From assembly GCA_030621995.1 (NCBI GenBank), contig JAUXGP010000017.1:1-13548 (forward strand): a stretch of 13,548 bases of DNA. The letters are read 5' to 3'. The translations under genes and the position numbers were made by a program. The notes beneath the pieces were generated by a model. The model ran no database searches and was not told the DNA's origin. It worked only from the letters and a program-made list of their open reading frames with translations. Shown in pieces: positions 1-13,548 of this stretch (position 1 is the stretch's first letter; every line of letters begins with the position of its first letter). The stretch comes from Psychrilyobacter sp. GTDB lineage: Bacteria > Fusobacteriota > Fusobacteriia > Fusobacteriales > Fusobacteriaceae.

Positions 1-503
1 ACAGCAAAAGGTCTGAGAGCAGATATTTTTCCTGATCCCCCTCTTTTTCCACCCCTTACTTCACCTAAAAGTTTCACCCTTTGAAAACCGGTATTATAAC
101 CCAGTCTCAATCCAAATTCCACCTGGGTCTCTCTACTGCTTATTCCTTTATAGCCATCTTCCATATCAGAATTATTTAATTGAGTTGCCCCTATTACTCC
201 TCCAACACCTTGAAGCGCTATCCCTCCAAAAAGCTGAGAAAAGCCTGTAAGCGTCAATTTAGAATTTAATCTGTGTTTATAGCCTATTTCAGTACCTAAA
301 ATATAAAGATTTTTACTCTCTAACATTATAAGCGGTATATAACGTGGTTGTTTTTCCTCTATTTGATAGAGTTTACTCCCATACCCTGCCATAAATCCTA
401 AAGAGAATTTATATTTTGACTCCGTTTCCTTCGCCGGTATATTATTTTCTGAAAAACTCAATACAGATAATAAAATAAAGACAACTAAAATTATTCTTTT
501 CAT
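1..503 (-). CDS. MipA/OmpV-family outer-membrane protein, 5' part only
   Basis: The reading frame opens with ATG at 503-501 and stays open to the left edge (167 complete codons), so the C-terminus is missing. A strong GGGAGGGGAG ribosome site lies just upstream. Residues 1-19 are a Sec signal peptide (MKRIILVVFILLSVLSFSE) with likely cleavage after Ser18. The mature part has alternating short strands typical of a small beta-barrel: FSLGFMAGYGSKLY, then YIPLIMLESKNLYILGTEIGYKH, then VEFGLRLGYNTGF, matching the pattern of MipA/OmpV proteins (Pfam MipA). These sit in the outer membrane; E. coli MipA is described as a scaffold for murein enzymes, but the role of distant members is unknown. Family assignment is by eye; another small porin-like barrel is the main alternative. 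It follows the MOSC gene on the same strand after 137 bp, probably as its own transcription unit. Confidence 0.6.
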   Translation of the reverse strand, partial: MKRIILVVFILLSVLSFSENNIPAKETESKYKFSLGFMAGYGSKLYQIEEKQPRYIPLIMLESKNLYILGTEIGYKHRLNSKLTLTGFSQLFGGIALQGVGGVIGATQLNNSDMEDGYKGISSRETQVEFGLRLGYNTGFQRVKLLGEVRGGKRGGSGKISALRPFA

Positions 504-640
504 ATCTCCCCTCCCTAATTTTAAACTTACTTTTAATTTTACCATATTAAGGGAGATAAATCTTCCATTATGGTATCAAATTTTGGAGAAAGATTGCCTA
601 CTATTTTGATATAGCTCTACCTAACATCAAAACATCAACT

Positions 641-1060
641 CTAATCATTTAATGTTACCTCTATTAAATCATCTTTTTTAAGATTACCACCATGAAGAAC
701 TTTTGCAAAAATACCTTCATGATACATGGTATTATAATGGTCTTCTATTAAAACATCTTTTTTTCCTATTTGAGTTATTTCTAAAATAACTTCTTTTCCA
801 AATTTTACTTTTGTTCCAACTGCAAGTTTAAACAAATCGATATTTTCAATTATAATGTTTGCTTCAAAAGTTCCAAGAGTCAAATCATTTGCCTTAAATT
901 TATCAATAGATTTTTTCGATAAAATACTAATTTGATGTCTACCTTCGGTAGCATGAATATCATTAATTACACCGAAATCAGTTTTTAATTCTATAGTATC
1001 GTATTCAATTTTTGCTGTGCCTCGTTCTTTTCCAATAAAAAGATTACTAACTTTCCCCAT
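641..1060 (-). CDS. MOSC-domain protein of the Moco operon (cysteine-less)
   Basis: This is a 139-residue single-domain protein. A TTG at 1072 is in frame, but GGAGG at 1066-1070 sits 5 nt before the ATG at 1060, so ATG (MGKVSN) is taken as the start. It begins 1 bp after the moaA stop and its ribosome site lies inside the last moaA codons, which implies translational coupling. MOSC-like features in order are: GRHQISIL about residues 41-48, an ENIDLFKLAVGTKVKFG stretch, ITQIGK, then EGIFAKVLHGG and a closing KKDDLIEV. MOSC domains bind or transfer molybdenum or sulfur on pterin cofactors, and stand-alone forms often sit with moa/mog genes. The family usually has a Cys shortly after the IGK motif; here the sequence is IGKKDVLIEDH and the whole protein has no Cys. 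Its job is therefore inferred only from its neighbours. Confidence 0.8.
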   Translation of the reverse strand: MGKVSNLFIGKERGTAKIEYDTIELKTDFGVINDIHATEGRHQISILSKKSIDKFKANDLTLGTFEANIIIENIDLFKLAVGTKVKFGKEVILEITQIGKKDVLIEDHYNTMYHEGIFAKVLHGGNLKKDDLIEVTLND

Positions 1061-1061
1061 A

Positions 1062-2027
1062 TTAACCTCCAATTTGAAACATATTTTTTTTAATTATAAC
1101 ACCTTGATTTAATTTATGCTCTTTTGGTTTTTCTTTAATAATTTCTAATAATTTTTCTTCAAGTTTATATTCATCATAGGCATATTCTTTTAAATCATAT
1201 TCCACATCAGAATGTAAACATAATTTCAAATTACCAGTTGAAGTCAATCTAACTCTATTACAATTACTACAAAAACCACAGCTTATAGGATTAATAAGAC
1301 CCACTCTACCCTTATAACCTGGTATTTGATAATAATCTGCAGGTGAATTTTTATCTTTTTTTATTACACGTTCTAACTTTTTCATTTTTTTAAGAACTAT
1401 TTCATTTGATAAATATCTATCTCTTGACCAATTAGAAGTATTACCAATCGTCATTAATTCAATAAACCTAACATCATAATTATTATCCTTTGTTAAATTC
1501 ACTAAATTTTCTATTTCATCATCATTAAAACCTTTTACTAAAACAGTATTTAATTTTATAGGTTCTAACCCAACTTTTTTAGTTTCTTCTATACCTTCAA
1601 GAACATCTTTTAAATTGCTACCACGGGTAATCAAAGAGTATTTTTTTTCATCCAAAGAATCTATTGAAATATTTACTCTATCTAATCCAGCTTCTTTTAA
1701 TTGCTTTGCATATTTTTTTAATAATAAACCATTGGTAGTTAATGTGATTTCAGTAATGCCTTCAATATTAGAAATTTTTCTAACTAAATCTACAATATCT
1801 CTTCTAACTAAAGGCTCACCACCTGTTAATCTTATTTTTTTAACGCCAAGTTTTGCAAATACACTAACAATATTTGTAATTTCTTCAAAAGACAGAATTT
1901 CATCATGTAGTTTAAATTCAGTCCCTCCTGCAGGCATACAATATTTACATCTACTATTACATCGATCCGTAACAGAAATTCTTAAATATTCAATTTTTCT
2001 ATTGAAATTATCCTTTAGTATTTTCAT
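1062..2027 (-). CDS. moaA: GTP 3',8-cyclase MoaA
   Basis: Radical-SAM enzyme that, with MoaC, turns GTP into cyclic pyranopterin monophosphate, the first step of molybdenum/tungsten cofactor synthesis in the cytoplasm. The 321-residue length is normal. The N-terminal SAM cluster motif is C23-x3-C27-x2-C30 (DRCNSRCKYCMP), followed by LTGGEPL at 67-73. The C-terminal substrate-side cluster uses C253-x2-C256-x13-C270 in CSNCNRVRLTSTGNLKLC, with an extra Cys at 250. The protein ends in the conserved Gly-Gly tail (QIGG). The start is fixed because an in-frame TAA lies directly before the ATG; the ribosome site is weak (GGGGA about 15 nt upstream). The ATG overlaps the TGA of a short upstream frame (ATGA), so expression may depend on coupling. 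It lies downstream of wtpC in the same operon. No moaC, moaE or moeA is in view. Confidence 0.97.
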   Translation of the reverse strand: MKILKDNFNRKIEYLRISVTDRCNSRCKYCMPAGGTEFKLHDEILSFEEITNIVSVFAKLGVKKIRLTGGEPLVRRDIVDLVRKISNIEGITEITLTTNGLLLKKYAKQLKEAGLDRVNISIDSLDEKKYSLITRGSNLKDVLEGIEETKKVGLEPIKLNTVLVKGFNDDEIENLVNLTKDNNYDVRFIELMTIGNTSNWSRDRYLSNEIVLKKMKKLERVIKKDKNSPADYYQIPGYKGRVGLINPISCGFCSNCNRVRLTSTGNLKLCLHSDVEYDLKEYAYDEYKLEEKLLEIIKEKPKEHKLNQGVIIKKNMFQIGG

Positions 2028-2131
2028 TTATCATCATTTTCCCCATTAATTCTAATTACTTCAATTAATTTTATTATTCTATCATCTTCTTCTAAATCTT
2101 TGATTGTTCTAATGTTTTTAGGCTCAATAAT
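2024..2131 (-). pseudogene. 3' remnant of an unrecognised gene between wtpC and moaA
   Basis: Between the wtpC stop and moaA a frame of 35 sense codons reads (minus strand) IIEPKNIRTIKDLEEDDR followed by IIKLIEVIRINGENDDK and a TGA at 2026-2024, which overlaps the moaA ATG as ATGA. The peptide looks like a real amphipathic, charged C-terminus, and the ATGA junction is typical of genuine co-translated neighbours. There is no ATG, GTG or TTG in the frame: tandem in-frame stops lie just upstream and overlap the end of wtpC. I do not recognise the peptide. The likely reading is the tail of a gene whose 5' part was deleted, leaving its coupling junction to moaA. A non-canonical ATT start, or chance, remains possible. 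Confidence 0.4.
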
Positions 2132-3131
2132 TTATTAGATTAATATGTTCATGATTAAAACCAAGTGTGACCGTATCACCTAAATTAATCTTCATCTCCA
2201 ACAACCTGTTAATTGTAAGAAATGCAATATACACCTTTCCACAATTCGAAATTTTGATTTCCTTATGCATACCAAAATCTATAATTTCTATAATTTCTCC
2301 TCTAAATTCATAATCTGTATCTAATGAACCCTTTGATAGTAAAATGTTTTCAGGTCTTATACCTAATCGAATTGGTTCATTAACACCAAATAAAATAGCT
2401 TCCTCTTTATTTAGATCAATCAACGTCTTCATACCTACGAAATCAGCAACAAATTCAGATTTTGGATATTGAAATATTTCATCAATGGCACCCGATTGTA
2501 AAATTTTTCCTTCATTCATTACTGCCATTCGATCTCCTAAACAATGAGCCTCTTGAAAGCTATGTGTCACCATAATCGTCGTCATTTTTAATTCATCGTG
2601 TATCTTTTTAATCTCCCACTGGATTTTCTCTTTTGTATTTGGATCCAATGCTGACAACGGTTCATCTAAAAGCAAGATCTCCGGTTCTACAATAAGCGCT
2701 CGTGCCAAAGACACACGTTGTTTTTCCCCTCCACTTAAATTTTCAGGACGTCGATTCAAAAGATGACTGATCTTTAGGAGGTCTACCAAACGATCAAAAT
2801 TATTTTTATATTTTATAGCCCCTTTGTCTTTCTTAAAATTAACACCATACCATATATTTTTTGAAACACTCATATGTGGAAAAAGATTATAATCTTGATA
2901 GCAAATACTTATATTTCTTTTTTCAGGCTTTTGTGAAATTATATTTTTTCCATTCAAATATATGGCACCTCTTTTTATAGGCACCAAACCTGCTATGGAC
3001 TCTAACACAATACTTTTACCAGAACCTGTAGGCCCCGAAAGAATAAAAAATTCCCCCGGATTTACCTGTAAGTTAATTTCATCTAATACAAAATCCCCTA
3101 ACGCCGTATATAACCCTTCTACTTTTATCAT
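2124..3131 (-). CDS. wtpC: tungstate/molybdate ABC transporter ATPase WtpC
   Basis: ATP-hydrolysing subunit of an oxyanion importer, on the cytoplasmic face of the WtpB permease dimer. Residues 1 to about 230 are the nucleotide-binding domain: Walker A GPTGSGKS at 33-40, Q-loop Gln79, signature LSGGEKQR at 132-139, Walker B ILLLDEP with Asp156/Glu157, D-loop SALD, and switch His190. The remaining 100 residues form a regulatory/TOBE-like domain (LGIRPENILLS, then a beta-rich tail), as in ModC, WtpC and other CysA-like ATPases. Length (335 aa) is normal for the group. Its ATG overlaps the wtpB stop as ATGA, showing tight coupling. Tungstate rather than molybdate is inferred from the WtpA-type binding protein in the operon; sequence alone does not fix the anion. 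Confidence 0.9.
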   Translation of the reverse strand: MIKVEGLYTALGDFVLDEINLQVNPGEFFILSGPTGSGKSIVLESIAGLVPIKRGAIYLNGKNIISQKPEKRNISICYQDYNLFPHMSVSKNIWYGVNFKKDKGAIKYKNNFDRLVDLLKISHLLNRRPENLSGGEKQRVSLARALIVEPEILLLDEPLSALDPNTKEKIQWEIKKIHDELKMTTIMVTHSFQEAHCLGDRMAVMNEGKILQSGAIDEIFQYPKSEFVADFVGMKTLIDLNKEEAILFGVNEPIRLGIRPENILLSKGSLDTDYEFRGEIIEIIDFGMHKEIKISNCGKVYIAFLTINRLLEMKINLGDTVTLGFNHEHINLINY

Positions 3132-3925
3132 AATTTTACTCGCTTTCTATTATTAGATGCCACCAGCCTTAATGCAATAAAAAGAACCATTGCTATCATC
3201 ATTAATATTGCGGTTACTGGTATAGCATAAATAATGCCATAAGTCGAAAACCGTTCATAAATAAGGGTAGGTGCAATCATAGGATGATATGCCAATATAA
3301 TAACTGCACCAAACTCACTGATACTTCTCGCCCAAGTGATAATCATACCACTTAGGAGGTCTCGCCATGCCAATCGAAAAGTGATTGTAAAAAAAGTCTT
3401 AAAATGACTTGCTCCTAAACTCCTCGAAACGTTTTCCATTCTTACTGGAATCCATTTAAATGCCTCTTTTGCCGAATTAAACATCAATGGCAGACTTACA
3501 AATAACATCGCTATTACAATGGCAATTTCTGTTCCTAAAATATCTATATTATGTGCCACCATAAATTTCCCCAGAGCACTTCTTGGTGATAAAACTGTTA
3601 GTAGTGCGATTCCCACCACAGTATGTGGCATAACCATAGGAATATCGATAATACTCTCTAAAAATCGTTTGCCGTAGAATTCATGTCTTTCAATATAATA
3701 TGCAAAGGAAACCCCTAACACAAATGCCAATAACATCGAATAAGTTGCACATTTCATACTAAGTAATATGGATTGCATGATCTTCTTATCATGAAGTGCT
3801 TCAATCATCAAATCTTTTTGGATCCAATTAAATGTATTAATGAGTGGTCCTAATATAAATATTAAAATAAGCATTCCTGAAATCAAAGAAAAAATATAAA
3901 ATATCTCTGTTTTTTTGCCAAACAT
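3128..3925 (-). CDS. wtpB: tungstate/molybdate ABC transporter permease WtpB
   Basis: Inner-membrane subunit of 265 residues, likely a homodimer with about six helices. The frame could begin at GTG 3940, but GGAGG at 3932-3936 is 6 nt before the ATG at 3925, so MFGKKTEIF is the better N-terminus. The binding-protein-dependent permease signature is clear: SRSLGASHFKTFFTITFRLA, the EAA loop that docks onto the ATPase, followed by ISEFGAVIILAYHPMIAP, a stretch shared by ModB/WtpB permeases. The IPMVMPHTVVGIALL segment also fits that family. It starts 22 bp after the wtpA stop and overlaps wtpC by 4 bp, so the three transporter genes are one transcription unit. Confidence 0.9.
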   Translation of the reverse strand: MFGKKTEIFYIFSLISGMLILIFILGPLINTFNWIQKDLMIEALHDKKIMQSILLSMKCATYSMLLAFVLGVSFAYYIERHEFYGKRFLESIIDIPMVMPHTVVGIALLTVLSPRSALGKFMVAHNIDILGTEIAIVIAMLFVSLPLMFNSAKEAFKWIPVRMENVSRSLGASHFKTFFTITFRLAWRDLLSGMIITWARSISEFGAVIILAYHPMIAPTLIYERFSTYGIIYAIPVTAILMMIAMVLFIALRLVASNNRKRVKL

Positions 3926-3947
3926 GAACCACCTCCCCACAATTAAA

Positions 3948-4949
3948 TTATTTTACAATATATTGTAATTTTTTTGGTAAATTTTCAGCACCAAATACCT
4001 TAATATTATCTAGTACAGGCTGTCCAGCCTCTTCTAATAATCTTAATCCCTGCTCTTTATCAAATAAAAATTTAAAAAATTCTATAGCAACCTCATTATT
4101 TTTACCGGTATTTGGCATAGTCAAACTATAAACGATTGGTTGACCTTTTTTAGTGATGAATTCGCCTGGTGCTTTTCCATCTAGTTCAATCGTTGATTTG
4201 GCATAATCCTCTTTGTACTCAATTGAACTTAAATTAATCTCTTTAGGTAATTTAATATACATTAAATCCGGATTTTTTTTTGCACGTTGCTTCCCTACAG
4301 ATTCATATTCAAACGCATAATCTAAAGCACCCGTCTCTAACATTGCTATCAATTCTACTGACTTTGCTCGAACATTTTTTTCAGGACAATTTTCAAGTAA
4401 TTTAGCATTTAAACCTTCGACGCCATAATGATTTTCTGCTAGCTGCCACAATAACACAGATCTATAACCACATGGATCAGCATTAGGATCACTATGACCA
4501 TAATTAACTCCCTCTTGTGTTAACACATCATACCAATTTTCAGACGTAATTTCATCAGCATACTTGCTCTCTTTTGAATACATAATCACCATTGAATTTT
4601 CTGCAAACAGCGCATTCCAATTTGCGAACTTCGGCATAACTAATGTATCGATAACCGTATAATCTGCAGAGCACAGTATATCTACTGAATCGCCAAATTC
4701 TGTTACCTTTCTTGCAATTGTTCTACTCCCACCTGGAGTTCTAATAACATCTACCTTTGGGTATTTTTCTTCAAATGCTTGCTCTAAGGATTCAAATGGT
4801 ATTGTTAAACTTCCTGCATGATAAATAACCAGATTTCCCTCTAATTGGTTCTCTGTCATCTCAACATCATTACTTGCATCCTGACATCCACCTAGTACCA
4901 ATACTCCCAACATCAATATAATCAACCATAAAATTTTCTTTTTAAACAT
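3948..4949 (-). CDS. wtpA: tungstate/molybdate-binding lipoprotein WtpA
   Basis: Extracytoplasmic solute-binding protein that delivers the oxyanion to WtpBC. Residues 1-22 form a lipoprotein signal peptide with a lipobox ending in Cys22 (VLVLGGC). The mature protein shows WtpA hallmarks in order: VIYHAGSLTIPF (41-52), PGGSRTIARKVTEFGDSVDILCSADY, NWNALFAENSMVIMY, NYGHSDPNADPCGYRS, and DYAFEYESVGKQ. These resemble archaeal WtpA more than ModA, hence tungstate as the favoured ligand; WtpA proteins bind both anions with tungstate preference. Length of 333 aa is usual. The ribosome site is AGGGGG, 8 nt before the ATG at 4949. It is first in the operon, with a promoter candidate about 45-70 bp upstream; no Moco riboswitch is visible in the short leader. 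Confidence 0.9.
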   Translation of the reverse strand: MFKKKILWLIILMLGVLVLGGCQDASNDVEMTENQLEGNLVIYHAGSLTIPFESLEQAFEEKYPKVDVIRTPGGSRTIARKVTEFGDSVDILCSADYTVIDTLVMPKFANWNALFAENSMVIMYSKESKYADEITSENWYDVLTQEGVNYGHSDPNADPCGYRSVLLWQLAENHYGVEGLNAKLLENCPEKNVRAKSVELIAMLETGALDYAFEYESVGKQRAKKNPDLMYIKLPKEINLSSIEYKEDYAKSTIELDGKAPGEFITKKGQPIVYSLTMPNTGKNNEVAIEFFKFLFDKEQGLRLLEEAGQPVLDNIKVFGAENLPKKLQYIVK

Positions 4950-4993
4950 CTTACAATCCCCCTAAAATCTTTTTTTTAAAAATATCCATCTAC

Positions 4994-5022
4994 TTTATAC
5001 TATTTTTTTTTAATAAAATCAA
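4994..5022 (-). promoter_or_regulatory. candidate sigma-70 promoter of the wtpABC-moaA-MOSC operon
   Basis: On the minus strand TTGATT (5022-5017) and TATAAA (4999-4994) are separated by exactly 17 nt. Transcription would start near 4987, giving a leader of about 38 nt before wtpA. The spacer is A-rich. This is the best match in the 200 bp upstream of wtpA, but the region is very AT-rich, so a chance match is possible. Confidence 0.5.
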
Positions 5023-5153
5023 ATTTTACCTACAAAACAGTAGGCAAATAGAAAGTAATTTTAATGGAAATTTTTAATGATATTAATATAGATATCAGAT
5101 AATCATGTTTTTGTTTGATATGATAAAATCGAATAGAAAAATGGAGGTTTAGC

Positions 5154-5243
5154 ATAGTAAAAAAGCGATTTAGTGACGAAGTAAAAGAAACGATAGTGAG
5201 ATTGTATAACAATGGGAATACACACCTTACATTGTATAATTAA
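5154..5243 (+). pseudogene. relic of an IS3-family transposase OrfA N-terminus
   Basis: The frame from 5157 reads VKKRFSDEVKETIVRLYNNG and then NTHLTLYN before a TAA at 5241-5243. The first 20 residues are the classic start of IS3-type OrfA proteins (KRFSxExKxxIVxLY, first helix of the HTH). A GGAGG at 5143-5147 sits 6 nt before ATA 5154-5156, where an ATG start would be expected, so the start codon appears mutated. Homology ends after about 22 residues, and no second helix, OrfB or terminal inverted repeat was found. The following ORF is in the same frame, separated only by the TAA. Only a short stretch supports the call. Confidence 0.6.
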
Positions 5244-6623
5244 ATGCAACAAAAAAAGATCCATAGAAACTTTCCTGGTATAATATATGTGCTAGCAAAC
5301 ATTAAAGGAGGTTTCCTTTTAATCGACATTCAAGACAAGTTAGAAAATTCTTGGACTCATGAACAAATAGCTGGAAGAGCAAAGTTGGATAAGTTATACA
5401 ACATATCATTTAAAACTATCTATAGAGCAATAGAAGATGGATTTGTTTCAGAAAATGCTGTTAAATTATTGCCTAGAAAAGGTAAAGTTAAAAAGAATGG
5501 AGTTATAGAAAAAAGAGGTAGTATACCAGATAAAAAAATGATAGAAGAAAGACCGCAAGAAGCAAATAATAATTTAAAGTTTCTTCCCCCTGAGGCAGAA
5601 ATTGAAACAATAACTATACTAAAACAGCTAAATAAATCAAGTAGAGCCTTAGCAGAGTTAAAAGCATATTCCGAGATGATTCCCAATAAAGATATATTGA
5701 TAAGCTCCTTAGCCCTTCAGGAAGCCAAAGCCAGTTCAGAGATAGAAAATATAGTAACGACCAATGACAACCTTTATAAATCCATTGTTACCGAAAAAAC
5801 TATAGATCCCAATACCAAAGAAGTTCTTAACTATCGAAAAGCTCTTTGGAAAGGGGTTGATCTGGTTAAGGCAAGTGGTTTTATTAGTACCAATATTATA
5901 TTGGAAATACAGCAGATGTTGGAAGATAACAAAGGCGGAATTAGAAAAATATCGGGAACAGCTCTCAGAAATTCTCTCACTGGAGATGTAATATACACTC
6001 CTCCTGCTGGAGAATCCCTCATCAGAGACCTTCTGGCGAATCTGGAAGAATACTATAATATAGAAACAGAAGTGGATCCATTGATAAAATTAGCTGTATC
6101 TCATTATCAATTTGAGGCAATCCATCCATTTTATGATGGTAATGGAAGAACCGGCCGTATTTTAAATATCCTGTATCTTCTCAAAGAAGAACTCCTTGAT
6201 TCTCCCATACTCTACCTAAGTTCATACATTATAAAAAATAAACAGAGTTATTATAGTCTCCTAAATAAAATAACTACAGAAAATAACTGGGAAGAATGGA
6301 TTTTGTATATACTGAAAGCCATAGAATTTACAGCAAAGGAAACCTTAGAGCTGGCCAAAGAGATAAAGGCACTGATTGATAATACTGTCGCTGAAGTCAG
6401 AGAAAAGCTGCCAAAAATTTACAGTAAAGAGCTTATAGAGTTTATATTTACTGAAATTTATACAAAGGGATCCCACTTAGTAGAAAAAGGATTTGCCAAT
6501 AGAAAAACTGTTTCAAAATATTTGAAATCATTAGAAGAGATAGATATTTTAAAGAGTGAAAAAATGGGAAGGGAAGTAATCTATATAAATATACATCTTT
6601 TTAATCTGTTAAAAAATAAATAG
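5244..6623 (+). CDS. Fic-domain AMPylase fused in frame to an IS30 transposase fragment
   Basis: 459-residue ORF of two unrelated parts. Residues about 107-459 are a class II Fic protein, normally near 350-370 aa. It has the N-terminal LKFLPPEAEIET entry, the inhibitory helix motif S164-SEI-E168-N169 that blocks ATP binding, the complete catalytic loop H294-PFYDGNGRTGR-305, and a C-terminal winged-helix-like segment (NRKTVSKYLKSLEEIDILK). Fic enzymes transfer AMP from ATP to a hydroxyl of a target protein; the target is unknown. Residues about 28-106 come from an IS30 transposase. The ATG at 5244 has no ribosome site, so the true start is uncertain: the in-frame ATG at 5538 (MIEERPQEANNNLKF), still inside the IS30 part, is an alternative and would give 361 aa. 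No Fic-derived ATG survives at the junction. Catalytic residues look intact, so it may be active if translated. No antitoxin partner is adjacent, as expected for self-inhibited class II enzymes. Confidence 0.85.
   Translation: MQQKKIHRNFPGIIYVLANIKGGFLLIDIQDKLENSWTHEQIAGRAKLDKLYNISFKTIYRAIEDGFVSENAVKLLPRKGKVKKNGVIEKRGSIPDKKMIEERPQEANNNLKFLPPEAEIETITILKQLNKSSRALAELKAYSEMIPNKDILISSLALQEAKASSEIENIVTTNDNLYKSIVTEKTIDPNTKEVLNYRKALWKGVDLVKASGFISTNIILEIQQMLEDNKGGIRKISGTALRNSLTGDVIYTPPAGESLIRDLLANLEEYYNIETEVDPLIKLAVSHYQFEAIHPFYDGNGRTGRILNILYLLKEELLDSPILYLSSYIIKNKQSYYSLLNKITTENNWEEWILYILKAIEFTAKETLELAKEIKALIDNTVAEVREKLPKIYSKELIEFIFTEIYTKGSHLVEKGFANRKTVSKYLKSLEEIDILKSEKMGREVIYINIHLFNLLKNK
5325..5561 (+). 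mobile_element. internal fragment of an IS30-family transposase
   Basis: Encoded residues 28-106 of the chimeric ORF read like the middle of an IS30 transposase: DKLENSWTHEQIAGRAKL (family pattern: W-S-P-E-Q-I-A-G), then ISFKTIYRAIEDG (pattern: ISHETIYRxIY), then LLPRKGKVKKNGVIEKRGSI and PDKKMIEERP (pattern: RKGKxxK...KRGxIPxxxxIxERP). The N-terminal HTH and the entire DDE catalytic domain are absent, so it cannot transpose. The frame is undisturbed. The left join lies near 5320 and the right join near 5560. No target duplication or terminal repeats were found. Confidence 0.8.
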
Positions 6624-6778
6624 ATTCCTAAAATCAACAAAAATTAAACACTGATGATTTTTGAAACTATAGGATCGTAAATAATCTTTTTAGGAGCGTA
6701 AATTTAATTTCTAAGAACAAAAAAAAATTTAGAAAAAAAATATAAAAACTCCTACAAAAAATAAATAAATTAAAATAG

Positions 6779-6808
6779 TTGACCAAACTACTTTTAATAT
6801 AGTATAAT
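6779..6808 (+). promoter_or_regulatory. sigma-70 promoter of the mtsABC(-metK) operon
   Basis: TTGACC (6779-6784) and a perfect TATAAT (6803-6808) are 18 nt apart. Transcription would start near 6815, about 30 nt before the riboswitch aptamer. The -35 box lies in the loop and arm of an imperfect hairpin (6772-6795, nine pairs with one bulge) followed by TTTT, which could end fic transcription or act as an operator. The rest of 6624-6846 is very AT-rich and shows no coding potential. Confidence 0.7.
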
Positions 6809-6846
6809 AATTTCGTTAAAATAAATTATAAATTAAATATGCAACA

Positions 6847-6948
6847 TCTTATTAAGAGAGACTGAGGGAATTGGCCCTATGACGTCCGGCAACCCCCATT
6901 TAGGGAAGGTGCTAAATCCAAGCGATTTTAGGTCGTGAAGATAAGAGG
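6847..6948 (+). promoter_or_regulatory. SAM-I (S-box) riboswitch aptamer
   Basis: The conserved S-box core is present in order: AAGAGAGACTGAGGGA, TTGGCCCTATGA, CCGGCAACC (6886-6894), AAGGTGCTAAATCC (6906-6919) and GAAGATAAGAGG (6937-6948). P1 is TCTTAT (6847-6852) with ATAAGA (6941-6946). The 3' strand of P1 also matches the 5' strand of the terminator: ATAAGAGG (6941-6948) complements CCTCTTAT (6963-6970). That gives the classical switch: SAM bound means P1 forms and the terminator folds; SAM absent means the antiterminator forms and transcription continues. The downstream genes (an ECF transporter and metK) fit SAM/methionine control. Confidence 0.95.
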
Positions 6949-6960
6949 AATAAAACTTTC

Positions 6961-6990
6961 AACCTCTTATTGTAAAATAAGAGGTTTTTT
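6961..6990 (+). terminator. riboswitch-controlled intrinsic terminator
   Basis: Perfect 10-bp stem AACCTCTTAT (6961-6970) and ATAAGAGGTT (6977-6986) with a 6-nt loop, followed by a T run (6985-6990). Its 5' strand competes with the riboswitch P1 3' strand (6941-6948), which makes it the expression platform of the S-box. Confidence 0.92.
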
Positions 6991-7002
6991 ATTATATTAC
7001 AA

Positions 7003-7225
7003 AACTCTTTCCTTGTTGGCGTTTTCCCTTTACTCCTTTCCTATTGGCGTTTCCTCTCAAATCAGAGGAAACTATCGTAATAGCTTCGAAGCGTTACGTT
7101 GGTTTCTCTTCACATCGTAAAATTCACTTTTTCTAAAAGTAAATTTTTCGTACTCGTGATCGAGAAACCGTAAGAGGGAGGAGTCGAAGAGAAACCTGGG
7201 AGGAAGAGTCACAAGGAGGAAGAAA
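7003..7225 (+). repeat. structured leader repeat, copy A (before mtsA)
   Basis: Positions 7003-7110 match 10381-10488 at 106 of 108 positions; 7162-7197 match 10495-10530 exactly, and similarity continues to the start codon. Elements in order: a pyrimidine-rich 5' arm (7003-7050) with two TTGGCGTTT-type boxes; hairpin TTTCCTCT-CAAATC-AGAGGAAA; the near-palindrome CGTAATAGCTTCGAAGCG followed by TTACG; hairpin GGTTTCTC with GAGAAACC; and a purine-rich 3' arm with three GGAGG sites, the last (7213-7219) being the mtsA ribosome site. The 5' arm can pair with the 3' arm (ACTCCTTTC with GGGAGGAGT). In this copy the GGTTTCTC hairpin is extended by 51 nt (7111-7161) that carry their own stem (7119-7131 with 7135-7147). 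It lies downstream of the riboswitch terminator and so would be part of the mRNA leader. Confidence 0.9.
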
Positions 7226-7768
7226 ATGAAATTAACTACAAAAAGTGTCGTAGCCATTGGGATAGGAGCCGCACTCTATGGTGTACTATCTGCTGTATCA
7301 CTGCCTATCGGACCAAATACATCCCTTAGGATAGCTGTTGCACTGCTTACTATATTCGGTGCATTATTCGGCCCATTGGTTGGATTTTTAGTTGGATTTA
7401 TCGGTCATGCTCTGAACGATACTATGATGTATGGCGGAGTATGGTGGAGCTGGGTTATGCTGTCTGCTATGATGGGATTTTCCATGGGATTTATAAAGTT
7501 AGACAAAAGTTTTGACCCTGAACATGGGATTTTAAATAAAAAACATATAGTTAAACTATATATATACGCAGTGATCGGGATGATCTTGGCTGGCCTTGCA
7601 GCCTATATCGGGGATGTATTCTTCTACGGCGAGCCTTCAAACAAGGTATGGATTCAAATCCTTATAGCCACCGCTTCAAACTTTGTCGTAACGGCTGGAC
7701 TGGGAATTCCTGCTGTAATTATGCTATCTAAAAGAAAAGGAAAATATAAAAATTTAACAGCCGAATAA
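7226..7768 (+). CDS. mtsA: ECF transporter substrate-binding S component (UPF0397-like), methionine-regulated
   Basis: 180-residue integral membrane protein with about five or six hydrophobic helices. It shows the UPF0397 signature: VAIGIGAALYGVLS near the N-terminus, PIGPNTSLR, then LTIFGALFGPLVGFLVGFIG and HALND, and a WWSW motif. S components bind the vitamin or metabolite and dock onto a shared T/A energising module. The module genes follow directly, and a SAM-I riboswitch precedes the operon, so the cargo is probably methionine or a precursor; subsystem annotations call this type the methionine-regulated ECF transporter MtsABC. The substrate has not been shown by sequence. AAGGAGG ends 6 nt before the ATG. 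The ribosome site is the end of repeat copy A. Confidence 0.85.
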   Translation: MKLTTKSVVAIGIGAALYGVLSAVSLPIGPNTSLRIAVALLTIFGALFGPLVGFLVGFIGHALNDTMMYGGVWWSWVMLSAMMGFSMGFIKLDKSFDPEHGILNKKHIVKLYIYAVIGMILAGLAAYIGDVFFYGEPSNKVWIQILIATASNFVVTAGLGIPAVIMLSKRKGKYKNLTAE

Positions 7769-7796
7769 AATTTGAAAACTAAGTAAGGAGATACGA

Positions 7797-9503
7797 ATGA
7801 AAAATGAAAGACCAAAAAATATTATTGAGTTTAAAAACTTTACATTTCAATATAGGAGTTTGGGAACTCCTACATTAAAAAATATAAACCTGTCTATACA
7901 GAGCGGAGAAAAAGTACTCATTGCCGGTCCGTCAGGCTCGGGGAAATCCACCCTGGGGCATTGTCTCAATGGGTTGATCCCATTTTCTTATTCCGGAGAG
8001 ATCAGCGGCGGATTAAACATAAATGGCATAGAACCACACAAGACCAGCATTTTTGATATCAGCAGTCATGTATCTACCATCCTACAAGATCAAGATGGCC
8101 AGTTTGTAGGGCTGAGTGTAGGAGAAGATGTAGCTTTCAGAGATGAGAACAGTAATGTTTCCATAGAGATCATGAAACAGAGTGTCAAGACAGCTCTAAA
8201 AAATGTAAATATGGAAAACTATATCCACAAAAGTCCGCAAGAACTGAGCGGCGGATTAAAACAGCGGGCTTCCCTGGCGGGAATAATCATGAGTGATGCA
8301 CCTATTCTGCTCTTTGATGAACCCCTGGCAAACCTGGATCCTGCAAGCGGCAGGTCTGCCATGAAATTGATCTCATCTGTCCATGAGAGATCAAATAAAA
8401 CTATCATTGTTATAGAACATCGGATTGAAGATGTTTTAGCTGAAACATTTGATAAAATTATTATTATCGATAATGGCATCATAGTGGCATCAGGCACTCC
8501 TGCAGAATTAATTTTAGACGGATCATTGAGGAGTTTTGGACTGCGTGAACCCCTCTATATTGAAACTATGAGATATGCTGATATCGACCTCAAGGAATTA
8601 GACATCTTAAATATAGAAAGTTTAAATACCCCGAATATCAAACAAAATATAGAGAACTGGATAAAGAATGTAGAACCTAAAATTTCATCTTATGGTGAAA
8701 AAATATTAGAGGTCAAAGATCTGACTTTCTCATACAATAAAAAAGACAATATAATTGAAAATATAAATTTTGATCTGTATAGAGGAGAGATAATTTCCCT
8801 TTTAGGAAATAATGGAGCAGGTAAATCCACCCTGTCTAAGGTCATCACAGGGATCTGTAAAAAATCAAACGGGACTATCTCCTATAAAGGAGAAAATATA
8901 GACAGCTGGAGTATTAGGAGGAGAGGGCAGGAGATCGGTTATGTTATGCAGAATCCAAACCACATGATTACCCAGGAAACCCTTTTAGATGAGGTCAGTT
9001 TTGGGCTGAAACTCCGTGGATACAAAAAAAATGAGATTTTGGAAAAAGCCGAAAAAACCCTAAAGATCTGCGGGTTATATTCCTTCAGAAATTGGCCGAT
9101 AACCGCTCTCAGCTACGGGCAGAAAAAAAGGCTCAGTATAGCGACTATATTAGCTTTAGACCCCAGCATCCTAATCTTAGACGAGCCTACAGCTGGTCAG
9201 GATTATAAACACTATTTAGAATTTATGCAGTTTATAGAAAAATTGAGTAAAACCGGCTTAAGCATTATCTTTATCACCCACGATATGCACCTGGCTCTAG
9301 AGTACAGTAATCGTGCCATTGTACTATCTGATGGCCGGATTATTCGAGATGATACAGTATCAAATGTATTGTCCCATACTGCGACTTTAGAACGGGCTAA
9401 TTTAAAGAAGATCTCTGTTTCAACATTAGCTGGCATCCTTGAAATAGATGAAAAATTGATGCTGGAAACTTTTATAAATTATGATCACAGTGAGGTGGTA
9501 TAG
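7797..9503 (+). CDS. mtsB: ECF transporter duplicated ATPase (two fused ABC domains)
   Basis: 568 residues with two complete nucleotide-binding domains in tandem, the fused EcfA1/EcfA2 form that powers the MtsA/MtsC complex from the cytoplasmic side. Domain 1: Walker A GPSGSGKS at 44-51, signature LSGGLKQR at 150-157, Walker B LLFDEP with Asp174/Glu175, switch His in IVIEHR. Domain 2: Walker A GNNGAGKS at 337-344, signature LSYGQKKR starting at 438, Walker B LILDEP with Asp462/Glu463, switch His in FITHDM. The second signature has Tyr in place of the first Gly, a common variant in ECF ATPases. A linker of about 60 residues (roughly 240-300) joins the domains. Start ATG has AAGGAG 6 nt upstream and lies 28 bp after mtsA. 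Both catalytic Glu are present, so both sites may hydrolyse ATP. Confidence 0.93.
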   Translation: MKNERPKNIIEFKNFTFQYRSLGTPTLKNINLSIQSGEKVLIAGPSGSGKSTLGHCLNGLIPFSYSGEISGGLNINGIEPHKTSIFDISSHVSTILQDQDGQFVGLSVGEDVAFRDENSNVSIEIMKQSVKTALKNVNMENYIHKSPQELSGGLKQRASLAGIIMSDAPILLFDEPLANLDPASGRSAMKLISSVHERSNKTIIVIEHRIEDVLAETFDKIIIIDNGIIVASGTPAELILDGSLRSFGLREPLYIETMRYADIDLKELDILNIESLNTPNIKQNIENWIKNVEPKISSYGEKILEVKDLTFSYNKKDNIIENINFDLYRGEIISLLGNNGAGKSTLSKVITGICKKSNGTISYKGENIDSWSIRRRGQEIGYVMQNPNHMITQETLLDEVSFGLKLRGYKKNEILEKAEKTLKICGLYSFRNWPITALSYGQKKRLSIATILALDPSILILDEPTAGQDYKHYLEFMQFIEKLSKTGLSIIFITHDMHLALEYSNRAIVLSDGRIIRDDTVSNVLSHTATLERANLKKISVSTLAGILEIDEKLMLETFINYDHSEVV

Positions 9504-10331
9504 GTGGCTGCAATCGGAACTTTATATATCGATAAAAAATCTCCTATCCATTCATTGGACGGCAGTATAAAACTGCTAATGTTGTTAGTTTGGACAGCGG
9601 TAGCCTTTATGTTTATAGATATCAGAGTATTTTTAGGGCTTATCCTAGGCGGTACTCTGCTTATTCGAATGGCAAACATTACATTTAAAGAGGTTAAACC
9701 ATTGGTAGTATTTTTACTGATATTTACCCTTTTCAACTCTATATTTTTAGTCTTAATCACCCCTGCCTATGGTTCGGAACTTATAGATTGTTATACACCG
9801 ATATTTAATATTTTAGGGAGACCGCTTACCTATGAAACACTGTGGTTTGCCGTGACATTATCTCTAAAATACCTGTCTATCCTGCCTATAACCATTATAT
9901 TTATTTTTACTACCCATCCCAGCAGGTTTGCAAGTAGTTTAAATAAGATCGGGGTCTCATATAAGATTGCCTATGCAGTCAATATAGCTCTCAGGTATAT
10001 TCCGGATGTCAGAGATGAGTTCGTAAATATCATGCATGCCCAGGAAGCTCGTGGAGTAGCCTTTAGAAAGGGTGAAGCCAGCCTTATAGGCAGGTTTAAA
10101 AACTACAACACCATCCTTATCCCCTTGGTTTTATCCTCTTTAAATAGGGTAGAAGTAGTCTCAAACGCTATGAATCTGCGTGGATTTGGATCTGAAAAAA
10201 CCAGAACTTGGTACAACGGGAAAAGATACGGGAAGTTAGATTTCTTAGCTGTCTCATTCCTTATAATAGGAGGAGTAGCAGGAGTCCTGGTAAGTAAATT
10301 TTATCTGAGCGGATTTTGGTATCCATTTTAA
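9504..10331 (+). CDS. mtsC: ECF transporter transmembrane T component (CbiQ family)
   Basis: 275 residues, with about five hydrophobic helices and two coupling helices. The diagnostic T-component motifs are the Ala-Arg-Gly boxes: EARG with A182-R183-G184 and NLRGFG with L225-R226-G227, which contact the two ATPase domains. It starts with GTG at 9504, immediately after the mtsB TAG; GAGGTGG at 9492-9498, inside the end of mtsB, serves as ribosome site, so translation is coupled. T components link S proteins to the ATPases. No hairpin terminator follows, and the next 50 bp are almost pure A/T. Confidence 0.92.
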   Translation: MAAIGTLYIDKKSPIHSLDGSIKLLMLLVWTAVAFMFIDIRVFLGLILGGTLLIRMANITFKEVKPLVVFLLIFTLFNSIFLVLITPAYGSELIDCYTPIFNILGRPLTYETLWFAVTLSLKYLSILPITIIFIFTTHPSRFASSLNKIGVSYKIAYAVNIALRYIPDVRDEFVNIMHAQEARGVAFRKGEASLIGRFKNYNTILIPLVLSSLNRVEVVSNAMNLRGFGSEKTRTWYNGKRYGKLDFLAVSFLIIGGVAGVLVSKFYLSGFWYPF

Positions 10332-10380
10332 AAAAAAAATAAACAATTAAACAATTAATAATTTAAAATAAATAATAAAT

Positions 10381-10557
10381 AACTCTTTCCTTGTTAGCGT
10401 TTTCCCTTTACTCCTTTCCTGTTGGCGTTTCCTCTCAAATCAGAGGAAACTATCGTAATAGCTTCGAAGCGTTACGTTGGTTTCTCTTGTTTAAGAGAAA
10501 CCGTAAGAGGGAGGAGTCGAAGAGAAACCTAGGAGGAAGAGTCAAGGAGGAAAAAGA
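10381..10557 (+). repeat. structured leader repeat, copy B (before metK)
   Basis: Second copy of the element found before mtsA, 3378 bp downstream in direct orientation. It differs at two positions in the first 108 nt (10396 and the CCTGTT/CCTATT site). The variable arm is short here: GGTTTCTCTT (10479-10488), GTTTAA, then GAGAAACC (10495-10502). The purine arm again ends in AAGGAGG (10544-10550), the metK ribosome site, 7 nt from the ATG. There is no second riboswitch or terminator in front of this copy. The stretch 10332-10380 is AT-only spacer and shows no convincing promoter. Confidence 0.9.
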
Positions 10558-11712
10558 ATGACTAACAAAACTTATTTTACATCGGAATGTGTATCACCGG
10601 GACATCCAGATAAGATTGCAGACCAAATTTCAGATGCAGTATTAGACGCATGTTTAGCAGATGATCCAAAAGCAAGGGTAGCTTGTGAGACTTTTTGTAC
10701 CACGGGACAAGTCGTAGTCGGAGGAGAGATCACTACAACTACCTATGTAGATATTCAAAGAATCGTCAGAGATAAGATCGACGAAATCGGATATAGACAG
10801 GGAATGGGATTTGACTCAGACTGTGGTGTATTAAATGCAATCCATTCTCAATCACCTGACATTGCTCAAGGTGTAGATACCGGGGGAGCAGGAGACCAAG
10901 GAATTATGTTTGGAGGAGCTGTAGATGAAACTCCAGAACTTATGCCTTTGGCCCTTGTTTTATCCAGAGAGATCATCAGAAAATTAACTACTATTACCAG
11001 AAGCGGGGAATTAGCATGGGCTAGACCAGATGCCAAATCTCAAGTAACATTAGCCTATAACGAAGATGGAAGTGTTGATCATGTAGAAACTGTAGTTGTT
11101 TCTGTTCAGCATAATCCTGAAGTTTCAAATGAAACTATCAAAGAAGATATTATAAAATTAGTTATCACTCCTGTTTTAGAGAGTTATAATCTAGATATAA
11201 AAAAAGTAAATCATTTCCATATCAATCCAACTGGTAGGTTTGTAATCGGCGGGCCAAATGGAGATGCAGGACTTACCGGCAGAAAAATTATCGTAGATAC
11301 ATACGGTGGATTTTTCCGTCACGGTGGGGGAGCATTCTCTGGAAAAGATCCTTCAAAGGTAGACAGATCAGCTGCTTATGCTGCCAGATGGGTTGCAAAA
11401 AACATTGTAGGAGCTAAATTAGCTACCAAGTGTGAAATACAGCTTTCATATGCCATAGGAGTAGATCATCCTACATCTATCAAGGTGGATACTTTTGGAA
11501 CTGGAACAGTGGAGGAGATTGCATTAGCTCAAGCTGTAATGAAAATATTTGACCTTTCACCTAGAGGAATCGAGGGAGCTCTTGAACTTAGAGAACCTAA
11601 ATTTAAATATCAAGATTTAGCTGCCTTTGGACATATCGGCAGAACTGATATCGACCTTCCTTGGGAGAGATTAAACAAGGTAGAGGAGTTAAAAAAAGCA
11701 TTAAATATATAA
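10558..11712 (+). CDS. metK: S-adenosylmethionine synthetase
   Basis: Cytosolic enzyme that joins methionine and ATP to give SAM, phosphate and pyrophosphate; it acts as a tetramer with Mg and K ions. 384 residues, the normal bacterial length. Motifs in order: [19 protein letters not shown] (from residue 13; GHPDK at 15-19), the signature [10 protein letters not shown] at 110-119, and the phosphate loop [17 protein letters not shown] beginning at 255. The Lys and Asp residues used by the family for metal and ATP binding lie in these motifs. It sits downstream of mtsABC on the same strand without an intervening terminator, so read-through from the SAM riboswitch promoter would place it under SAM feedback; repeat copy B forms its leader. 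GC content is visibly higher than in the wtp/moaA genes. Confidence 0.98.
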
Positions 11713-11715
11713 TTG

Positions 11716-11756
11716 AAAAAAGATGATCTCTGTATTTTACAGAGATCATCTTTTTT
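11716..11756. terminator. bidirectional intrinsic terminator between metK and the POT gene
   Basis: Near-perfect long hairpin: 5' arm AAAAAAGATGATCTCTGTA (11716-11734), loop TTT, 3' arm 11738-11756 ending in TTTTTT. The A run on one side and T run on the other give a U tail on both strands, so it can stop metK on plus and the convergent transporter gene on minus. Confidence 0.93.
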
Positions 11757-11763
11757 CATCCTA

Positions 11764-11794
11764 TGGTGGTGTGTTTGACAAGACCCACCACCAA
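11764..11794. other. GC-rich hairpin in the convergent gap
   Basis: TGGTGGTG and CACCACCA form an 8-bp perfect stem around a 15-nt loop, just beyond the metK terminator and 20 bp from the end of the transporter gene. No T run follows on either strand, so it is not a standard terminator; it may protect 3' ends or be incidental. Confidence 0.5.
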
Positions 11795-11814
11795 AAATTG
11801 CACAGGTCGAGTAA

Positions 11815-13200
11815 TTAAGCTATTACTTCTTCTGCTTCTTCTTCCTCTACAACTAAGCCGTTTAACTTCTTATCTAATCCCCAAAGGATAATTCCAGCGA
11901 AGATAGCAATTGCTGCAATAACAAGATATGCCTTTGCAAAGTCAAACTTTAGCGTATATGCATATAAGTAACCATATGATTTACCTGCAAAGAACACTGC
12001 TAATACCCAGATACTCATCATCCCAGTTAGTAATCTTGGTGGCGAGAACTTTGCGATAAATGAATTCCCAAGTGGAGAGAACACCATTTCACCAGTGGAT
12101 AGTACAACACCCATTGCAATTATCCAAGCGATAGGAGCAAGATTGTTTCCTCTTGAAATGTCAGCTACTGCAAATATCACATAAGATGACCCTAGAAGTA
12201 TCATACCTAAGGCAGTTTTCTTAAACATGCTTAAGTCACCCTGAGGTCTCTTAGCCAATCTAGACCAAAGCTTACCCAGTATAGGCCCCAATGCAATACA
12301 CATGAATGCGTTTAATGAATCAAACCAAGCTGTAGGGATTGTAAAGTTTCCAATCATCCAGTTTGCAGCTCCGTTGTCTCCACCCCAATAATAATAAACT
12401 GGCATATATGCTAAGTACCATAGTATCCAGAAGATAATTGAGAAGAATGATACTAAGACTATAGCAGCAACTCTTTTCTTTTCTATTGTGGTCAAAGGAA
12501 TTTTCTCTTCTTTCTCTTCAACTTTTTTCTCTTCTTTATTCTCAGCTATTTTAAATGGCTTTTTACCTGTGTCCCCTAGAAATCTCCAACCATATACAAA
12601 GAAGATTGCATTAACAAACATTACTATTGCAATAACTAAGAAACAGAAAGAATATCCTTTAAATCCTACAAGCAAACCGATAATAGTTGTTCCCAAGAAA
12701 GCACCAACATTAACGAATGAATACTGAGTAGAAAATGCTCCGTCTAATTCACCGGGATCATCGAAAAGTCTACCTGTTATAGCGTTTGTCTGACACTTAA
12801 ATAATCCTGTCCCTAAAGATAGTAAGATAATCATTAAGTTAACCATCCCGGTACTATTAGCTTGCCATCCCACTAAGTAACCTGCTCCCATGAGTAACAT
12901 ACCGATAGGCACAAGGTATCTGGCTCCAAATACTCTATCTGAAAGATATCCTCCAATTATTGGTGCTAAGTAAGTAAATGCTACCAAGTTTGCTGTCATC
13001 TTTGCTGCATCCCCTGGTCCAATTCCTAATCCACCATCTGCTATCTTAGCAACTAAGAATACTGCGATTAACCATTTAGCTGAGTAAAACGCAAATCTTT
13101 CAAATACGAAAGCCATTGAACACACATAAAATCCTAATGGCTTTTTTCTTGCTTTTTCCATCTTCATCCCCCCTGGTTGTTTCATTTTTTCTTTTGTCAT
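11815..13200 (-). CDS. POT/PTR-family (proton-coupled oligopeptide type) transporter
   Basis: Polytopic inner-membrane protein of the major facilitator superfamily, about 12-14 helices, 461 residues from the ATG at 13200. Family marks: FERFAFYSAKW near the N-terminus (the ERFxYY element), GGYLSDRVFGARYLVPIGML (loop 2-3 MFS motif) and FSTQYSFVNVGAFLG, equivalent to the PTR2 FYxxINxG motif. A charged, Glu/Lys-rich cytoplasmic loop (roughly NKEEKKVEEKEEKIP) splits the two halves, and the C-terminus is acidic. The frame is open to 13305, but a poly-G ribosome site (7 G, 13208-13214) favours 13200; ATG 13161, 6 nt after another G6 run, is an alternative. Relatives import di- and tripeptides with protons; substrate here unknown. 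The first Glu of the ExxER motif is replaced by Phe. Confidence 0.85.
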   Translation of the reverse strand: MTKEKMKQPGGMKMEKARKKPLGFYVCSMAFVFERFAFYSAKWLIAVFLVAKIADGGLGIGPGDAAKMTANLVAFTYLAPIIGGYLSDRVFGARYLVPIGMLLMGAGYLVGWQANSTGMVNLMIILLSLGTGLFKCQTNAITGRLFDDPGELDGAFSTQYSFVNVGAFLGTTIIGLLVGFKGYSFCFLVIAIVMFVNAIFFVYGWRFLGDTGKKPFKIAENKEEKKVEEKEEKIPLTTIEKKRVAAIVLVSFFSIIFWILWYLAYMPVYYYWGGDNGAANWMIGNFTIPTAWFDSLNAFMCIALGPILGKLWSRLAKRPQGDLSMFKKTALGMILLGSSYVIFAVADISRGNNLAPIAWIIAMGVVLSTGEMVFSPLGNSFIAKFSPPRLLTGMMSIWVLAVFFAGKSYGYLYAYTLKFDFAKAYLVIAAIAIFAGIILWGLDKKLNGLVVEEEEAEEVIA

Positions 13201-13437
13201 TTTTATTCCCCCCCTTTTTTTTAATTTAACCTTACAAAACTTAATTTTAAAAGTGAATTTTTTCTTTTTCAATCTTATATTACCTCTTTTTTCATCTAAA
13301 AACAAATTTATTTTATTTTTTTGTTCTTTAAACGAAAAAAATGCTTTATTTATTCACTTTTAAATCAATTTACAAACATCAACTCCATTAATAAAGTATA
13401 AGTTTTTTTAGTTTTACAGAAATATAAGGTTTTTTCT
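13201..13437 (-). promoter_or_regulatory. AT-rich leader and promoter region of the POT gene, with a 13-bp inverted repeat
   Basis: No gene is supported here. The arms TTTAAAAGTGAAT (13246-13258) and ATTCACTTTTAAA (13352-13364) are perfectly complementary and about 93 nt apart, so the leader RNA could form a long-range stem. A weak promoter match on minus is TTGTAA, 17 nt, TAAATA, ending near 13341; a TATACT at about 13398-13403 is another possible -10. Next to the start codon lie runs of A8 and G7 (minus strand, 13222-13208). The low-complexity composition makes all promoter calls here uncertain. Confidence 0.35.
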
Positions 13438-13473
13438 AAAAAAAAGAGGAGATAACCAAACGGCTATCTCCTC
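13438..13473 (-). terminator. intrinsic terminator of a minus-strand gene to the right
   Basis: On the minus strand GAGGAGATA (13473-13465), a 10-nt loop and TATCTCCTC (13454-13446) form a 9-bp stem followed directly by eight U (A run 13438-13445 on plus). It faces leftwards, so it closes a transcription unit that enters from beyond the right edge. Confidence 0.88.
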
Positions 13474-13526
13474 CTCTATATATAAAAGTTGTTGAACACT
13501 TACATCTGTTGTTTTAGGGTCACCAA

Positions 13527-13548
13527 TTACTTAGTGATGTTTCCTACT
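13527..13548 (-). CDS. possible last codons of a gene beyond the right edge
   Basis: On the minus strand a frame reads VGNITK and then TAA (13529-13527), 54 bp before the terminator stem. The position fits the 3' end of the gene that the terminator serves. Only seven codons are visible and a second frame also stops nearby (RKHH, then TAA), so the frame and even the coding nature are uncertain; a structured RNA gene is an alternative. Confidence 0.25.

Follow-up and report, generated by a model that had tools for sequence, protein, structure and literature searches.

The question raised by this locus was whether two near-identical structured repeats, one directly before mtsT and one directly before metK, are regulatory RNAs of methionine/S-adenosylmethionine (SAM) genes or copies of something that moves. 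The repeats lie in a 13,548-nt stretch of Psychrilyobacter sp. (contig JAUXGP010000017.1, positions 1-13,548, forward strand), the whole of which is hereafter called the window. A preliminary description had proposed a new cis-regulatory RNA family of SAM/methionine genes, and as an alternative a mobile palindromic repeat that had landed before genes; the evidence presented here, above all the dispersal of the repeat on both strands, supports the alternative. The twin copies are very likely a mobile palindrome and not a regulatory RNA, and they are probably nested copies of a dispersed, non-coding palindromic element family, longer forms of which bear a gene for a DUF559 nuclease. The element and this conserved nuclease gene are associated both physically and phylogenetically.

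That two near-identical structured copies precede both genes was borne out. Positions 7003-7110 and 10381-10488 were identical at 106 of 108 positions (alignment and repeat finder), an exact 36-nt block was common to both copies from 7162 and 10495 (36/36), and copies 1 and 2 folded better than 200 of 200 shuffled sequences each, with z-scores of -4.4 and -4.2, respectively. The remark that the repeat was not recognised as a named RNA family also stood, as the repeat itself had no match at E<=1 in a search of 4227 Rfam families. Each window copy is a composite, in which a whole inner element lies within a split outer element (Table 1). Inserts resembling that at 7110-7159 of copy 1 were seen by eye in the hairpin loops of further copies from the genus; therefore, palindrome-in-palindrome nesting recurs in the element family. 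A second palindrome family, about TCACGARTATTA...AAATGTGA, was seen by eye in hairpin loops, namely at window positions 7110-7159 and at loci L013, L015, L032, L037, L059, and L061 (L and G numbers denote loci and genomes).

As judged from the extracted elements, the unit is about 100-110 nt long and consists of a terminal stem, ACTCTTTCCTT/AAGGAAGAGT, and two conserved hairpins, A (GTTTTCCCTT...AAGGAAAAC) and C (GGTTTCTCTT...AAGAGAAACC), with a variable middle between them. Over 17 un-nested elements, chosen from 31 segments, 407 of 425 cells conformed to the pairing, compared with 384 on average and at most 395 in 1000 shuffles, and compensatory changes on both sides occurred at 8 of the 25 paired positions. 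Since the 17 elements were chosen beforehand and the pairing scheme was read from the same 17, these values support conserved hairpins, and action as RNA cannot be told from action as DNA by them.

The element is not confined to methionine genes. In the window's own genome, 38 DNA match rows at E<=1 were distributed over both strands and many contigs. Across the genus, a covariance model found the element in seven of the eight genomes (0 to 69 rows per genome, the two strands of one place often being counted twice), and across the phylum in 11 of 98, four of which (G011, G013, G038, and G086) belong to other genera. Scattered matches in both orientations were the outcome that the preliminary description itself had named as speaking against a leader, and this is what was observed. 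Plasmids contained no match to the repeat, and viral contigs none to its 5′-end pattern. Among the matches listed, 71 places scoring about 40 bits or more, each counted on one strand, were classified by context, to the exclusion of four places at 40.1-40.5 bits and all weaker ones: 51 lay in co-directional gaps, 2 in convergent and 1 in divergent gaps, 5 overlapped an open reading frame (ORF) of a crude caller, and 12 were near contig ends. Within the 51 co-directional gaps, 32 elements were oriented with transcription and 19 against.

One further reading is that of intercistronic hairpins recruited for mRNA stability or operon tuning, similar to REP or BOX repeats, which would be compatible with a mobile origin. 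Its attraction is that 51 of the 54 classifiable copies were in co-directional gaps, often near a stop or start codon. However, the gene pairs of the same loci were themselves co-directional in 64 of 72 cases (6 divergent, 2 convergent), so the element has no clear context preference and the supposed preference for co-directional gaps was dropped. As interiors moreover differ at the same site between species (see below), we consider recruitment for such a role improbable.

Two observations on individual copies are added here. In G038, the copies at L036, L041, and L046 are contained in a larger inverted-repeat element whose ends, CAATGTCATCAAGCTAAGG...CCTTAGCTTGATGACATTG, look IS4-like; outside this larger element, a 10-bp direct repeat was seen by eye at L036 and L046. 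At L007/L016 (G000:C247), the same gene sequence occurs on both sides of the element in inverted order, which is either a real inversion or an artefact of assembly or amplification.

Comparison of corresponding sites, read by eye, revealed filled, altered, and empty states. At metK, G000 has a composite of 177 nt, G002 and G005 retain remnants consisting of the terminal-arm hairpin only (24 nt and 22 nt, respectively), and no element was seen in 4 of the 7 genomes possessing the gene (G001, G004, G006, and G007). A second metK gene, likewise without the element, is present in G004, G006, and G007. At mtsT, a composite is present in G000, G004 has an element with the same ends and another interior, and 4 of the 6 genomes with the gene (G002, G005, G006, and G007) have none, the element of G002 being located upstream of the riboswitch rather than at mtsT. 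The same ends with changed interiors were observed at two further sites, at rsmI in G004/G007 and between two contigs of the metagenome-assembled genome CSMAG_112, which could be different strains, while three other compared sites had small changes only. Thus, interiors can change at fixed ends. At obg, the same gap holds a form with DUF559 in G000 and G007 and a different palindrome in G002, G005, and G006, and the obg search gave no match in the other three genomes of the genus. A third palindrome, TTGAAAATTGAAAGT...ACTTTCAATTTTCAA, was noted upstream of obg (L220, L221, and L223), in the gap occupied in G000/G007 by the DUF559 element.

The link to methionine and SAM has another source. A SAM-I riboswitch precedes mtsT in the window and in all five relatives with mtsT, and in G001 one is found at metK. 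The end of the last transporter gene directly precedes metK in the window as well as in G002, G004, G005, G006, and G007, so both copies belong to one gene cluster and the two genes are not independent. On the + strand between the last transporter gene and metK, a pattern scan found no terminator-like site; the same gap had two promoter-like matches (10340-10369 and 10348-10376, 9 of 12), of a pattern found at 22 sites in the scan versus 12.7 expected. From this arrangement, the transporter genes and metK would be co-transcribed. Since the SAM-I riboswitch heads the cluster holding both copies, the methionine/SAM link belongs to the riboswitch and not to the repeat.

Nor does the repeat supply the Shine-Dalgarno sequences of the two genes, as had been proposed. 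The terminal arm ends at 7209 in copy 1 and at 10542 in copy 2, AAGGAGG follows just 3′ of the arm, and an AGGAGG close to the ATG is retained in relatives free of the element. A leader acting as a translational switch or thermosensor for methionine/SAM genes would be in keeping with the strong folds of the two copies just upstream of the start codons, and the minimum-energy fold predicted for copy 1 pairs part of the mtsT Shine-Dalgarno region, a point that counts against a purely mobile repeat and makes an effect of copy 1 on mtsT translation possible. Nevertheless, a leader is very improbable, given its absence at most of the metK and mtsT sites compared, copies before unrelated genes in both orientations, a Shine-Dalgarno sequence outside the repeat, and a SAM-I riboswitch already present at the site.

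Table 1. Positions in the window of the two composite copies and of the associated riboswitch, genes, and translation signals
Feature	Positions	Strand	Basis
SAM-I riboswitch aptamer (RF00162), just upstream of copy 1	6846..6947	+	cmscan, 78.1 bits, E 2.5e-17
Riboswitch terminator-like stem, then T run	6961..6986	+	pattern scan
Copy 1, split outer element, left half	7004..7031	+	sequence, element ends
Copy 1, complete inner palindromic element, 153 nt with nested insert	7032..7184	+	covariance model, 70 bits, E 1.1e-12
Copy 1, second palindrome TCACATCGTAAAATT...CGTACTCGTGA inside loop of hairpin C	7110..7159	.	not in copy 2
Copy 1, outer element, right half	7185..7209	+	sequence
Shine-Dalgarno region of mtsT (AAGGAGGAA), outside element	7213..7221	+	sequence
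mtsT, energy-coupling factor (ECF) transporter S component (PF07155), first gene of SAM-I cluster	7226..7768	+	Pfam
Copy 2, outer element, left half	10382..10409	+	sequence, element ends
Copy 2, complete inner palindromic element, 108 nt	10410..10517	+	covariance model, 87.8 bits, E 6.7e-17 (one of the 17 elements used to build the model)
Copy 2, outer element, right half	10518..10542	+	sequence
Shine-Dalgarno region of metK (AAGGAGGAA), outside element	10544..10552	+	sequence
metK, fourth gene of cluster	10558..11712	+	Pfam, S-AdoMet synthetase domains

Two other features of the window lie outside this subject. Directly after metK is a perfect 21-bp inverted repeat with a 3-nt loop (11714-11758), probably the metK terminator, and upstream of the riboswitch a Fic-domain protein of the SoFic type is encoded (5244-6623).

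A gene was found within the element. In a long form from G007, a frame of 129 codons replaces the middle between the hairpins, and its product is a DUF559 protein (PF04480, E 2e-32). Of 20 stretches around terminal arms, five were read and the others were scanned for element halves and ORF sizes only. A pair of arms about 690 bp apart in G007 was rejected as one long form, being two separate elements beside an ordinary gene; at L180, the frame between opposed arms was an ordinary gene between two separate elements. A family search detected PF04480 in all eight genomes of the genus, where it is of two kinds, palindrome-associated and fixed-locus, the latter in seven of the eight (L204, L206, L207, L210, L211, L215, and L217). 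When three of the seven fixed-locus copies were aligned (L217, L206, and L207), changed residues were observed in the DFYC/ExDG motifs, which suggests that this is perhaps a domesticated protein.

Of the small DUF559 loci of the phylum that are non-vertical, 10 of 15 had a match to the profiles of the element halves within 500 nt, several of these matches being one-sided, and none of the seven fixed-locus copies had one. Neither the mtsT copy of G004 nor the remnant in G005 is detected by these half-profiles. Left out of these 15 and 7 loci were L216 (judged by eye to be Vsr), L218 (with 42 matched positions in another frame of 141 codons), L213 and L229-L237 (mostly long ORFs, with L234 a weak match in a frame of 178 codons), and L239, the second piece of L228. 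All 11 element-bearing genomes fall among the 22 of 98 with PF04480, and because these genomes are related they do not represent 11 independent events. When the two flanks of a locus were compared for matching inverted sequence at z>=4, 4 of 13 non-vertical DUF559 loci of Fusobacteriota, none of 6 fixed-locus copies, and 2 of 5 plasmid loci were positive, as was 1 of 56 control ORFs. At L227 (G038:C1, about 1484193), two copies of a different multi-hairpin repeat (CCCTCTCAGTCACTGCGTGACAGCTCTCCC...), a repeat common in gut Firmicutes, flank DUF559.

An AlphaFold model of the G007 protein had a mean predicted local distance difference test (pLDDT) score of 81, and Foldseek found it to resemble the endonuclease-like protein 3hrl and the homing endonuclease I-Bth0305I (3r3p), and weakly Vsr (1vsr). 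On this model, the DUF559 protein is predicted to have a fold of the EDxHD/Vsr type, and the alignment contains the conserved D, ExD, and H residues. The rates of nonsynonymous (dN) and synonymous (dS) substitution were 0.20 and 0.93 for the orthologous pair at obg and 0.19 and 1.38 for a fixed-locus pair; with dN well below dS in both, both kinds of DUF559 are under selection.

DUF559 genes flanked by palindromes were also found beyond the phylum. Five plasmid records encode a relative at E<=1e-8. In a Pseudanabaena plasmid, a CCCCC-rich palindrome flanks the gene in inverted copies (z 39). Counting this locus, the palindrome is present at 11 places in the plasmid record, and P. galeata has a 112-nt copy of it without the DUF559 gene. 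The flank of the Photobacterium gene occurs at least at 40 places in its replicon, its own included, and those of two Picosynechococcus plasmids at 3 and 7 places; the case of a Synechocystis plasmid was weak. In a wider search of 291 genomes, 33 of those related only at the level of domain had PF04480 at E<=1e-25, and 50 places were listed. Forty-nine of them were taken, the 50th lying in the same long ORF as L263, and five were dropped from the flank test (four in long ORFs and one with too short a flank); in-frame stops occur in L255, L268, and L299, and there the first stop was taken as the start of the downstream flank. Matching inverted flanks at z>=4 were detected at 19 of the 44 remaining DUF559 loci (17 genomes) versus 0 of 44 control ORFs at the same loci. 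Hairpin arms are self-complementary, so a match of this kind may reflect similar hairpins on both sides in either orientation, and many of the 19 flanks are C-rich/G-rich hairpins close to the DUF559 frame. Among the matches listed from the open-licence literature, no paper linking DUF559 with palindromic repeats was found, nor was such a link found among those on repeats of Fusobacteria or Psychrilyobacter or on nested palindromes.

Intergenic DNA of bacteria commonly contains short palindromic repeats, many families of which have no known mover. Bacterial miniature inverted-repeat transposable elements (MITEs), such as ERIC and Correia, are short, intergenic, and ORF-less, with inverted terminal arms, and the present element resembles them in all these respects. 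In contrast to them, it nests in hairpin loops, no target duplication was seen, and the gene between its ends is for a nuclease and not for a DDE transposase (DDE families were not searched). This bears on the reading of the same element as an ordinary MITE, moved by a lost or unsampled DDE insertion sequence, with DUF559 as a homing-type hitch-hiker. That reading shares its core with our preferred explanation and differs in the mover. Terminal inverted arms and many dispersed ORF-less copies suit it, as does the travel of the G038 element inside a larger inverted-repeat element. Apart from the ordinary gene at L180, the nameable frames between opposed arms are DUF559 genes (L181, L184, and L185), a weak argument to the contrary as no scan for transposase families was made, and the link of DUF559 with palindromes recurs with unrelated repeat sequences in other phyla. 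A DDE-driven MITE is therefore regarded as unlikely, though a serious competitor.

BOX, RUP, and SPRITE are not known to share a name, sequence, or host with the element, nor to be linked to DUF559. These small structured interspersed repeats of pneumococci are judged in PMC3049150 to be parasitic and likely to affect co-transcribed genes, and one BOX element is described there as forming a composite structure with T box riboswitches. Similar to BOX so described, the present element is a structured repeat able to sit beside riboswitches. REPINs, as described in PMC3116915, are palindromic, extragenic, and dispersed, and the REPIN/RAYT system shares with the element the combination of dispersed extragenic palindromes and a single small associated gene for DNA processing. 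However, the unit is two hairpins inside a terminal stem, unlike a REPIN, and the associated gene encodes an EDxHD/Vsr-like nuclease of the DUF559 family rather than a Y1 tyrosine transposase. A REPIN-type repeat mobilised by such a transposase (RAYT) would account for the palindromic, extragenic, and dispersed character, but PF01797 was found in one of the eight genomes of the genus, with four in-frame stops and in a genome with two model rows (a miss being possible, as five of the eight are incomplete or fragmented to some degree), and this origin is exceedingly improbable. The catalytic fold of the modelled protein is similar to that of EDxHD homing endonucleases such as I-Bth0305I (PMC3943268, PMC9403480), whereas the DUF559 genes reside in or beside dispersed palindromes and not in an intron or intein. 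A Caulobacter DUF559 protein is called Vsr-like in PMC12907096.

That DUF559 is the mover of the repeats is suggested by these associations, and we hold it at slightly below an even chance. Somewhat more tentative is the general form of this proposal, in which DUF559 nucleases move a bacteria-wide class of dispersed palindromes, REPIN-like but with a Vsr/EDxHD-type nuclease in place of the tyrosine transposase; equally tentative is the manner of spread, by cutting and interior copying that would yield palindromes nested in palindromes. According to this scheme, the short copies would be ORF-less, MITE-like forms, and the nuclease would recognise and cut palindromes in extruded or single-stranded form. 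Repair from another copy, a homing-like step, could then exchange and spread interiors, occasionally complete elements too; nested copies would arise through insertion into hairpin loops. Effects on the translation of metK and mtsT would be side effects of the hairpin in the mRNA.

Several observations weigh against movement by DUF559, or against movement as such. By eye, no consistent target-site duplication was found at the flanks of the 51 copies or at the metK, mtsT, and obg sites; movement is something we infer from compared sequences, and gene conversion could account for the common interior of the two window copies. Half-element matches were lacking at 5 of the 15 non-vertical DUF559 loci, and among the ten with a match that of L205 was marginal (E 0.04). 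A first control, in which 0 of 12 loci matched, had been picked as element-free; among unselected metK, mtsT, and obg loci, 6 of 21 had a half-profile match, four of the six being made up of the window's own loci and two obg DUF559 loci. As this control is less clean, our estimate for DUF559 as mover was lowered from an even chance, and that for the general proposal slightly from an already tentative level. G005 and G006 have 2 and 6 model rows but just the fixed-locus DUF559, except for one further match inside a long ORF in G006. Purifying selection does not set the element-borne DUF559 apart. In a cruder test, DUF559 had hairpins on both flanks at 5 of 13 loci of the non-vertical kind, at 1 of 5 on plasmids, and in 1 of 6 fixed-locus copies versus 2 of 58 control ORFs, none of five viral-contig DUF559 loci had hairpins on both flanks, and 25 of the 44 loci in other phyla fell below z>=4. 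Finally, DUF559 may simply hitch-hike, with palindromes serving it as a safe site.

These findings indicate that a composite repeat in a riboswitch-controlled cluster can pass for a new regulatory RNA. The surprise of this locus is the link to DUF559, which is testable and may be general. If DUF559 nucleases, which have been little studied, are indeed linked to repeats across phyla, the origin of such repeats would become directly testable with one small protein.

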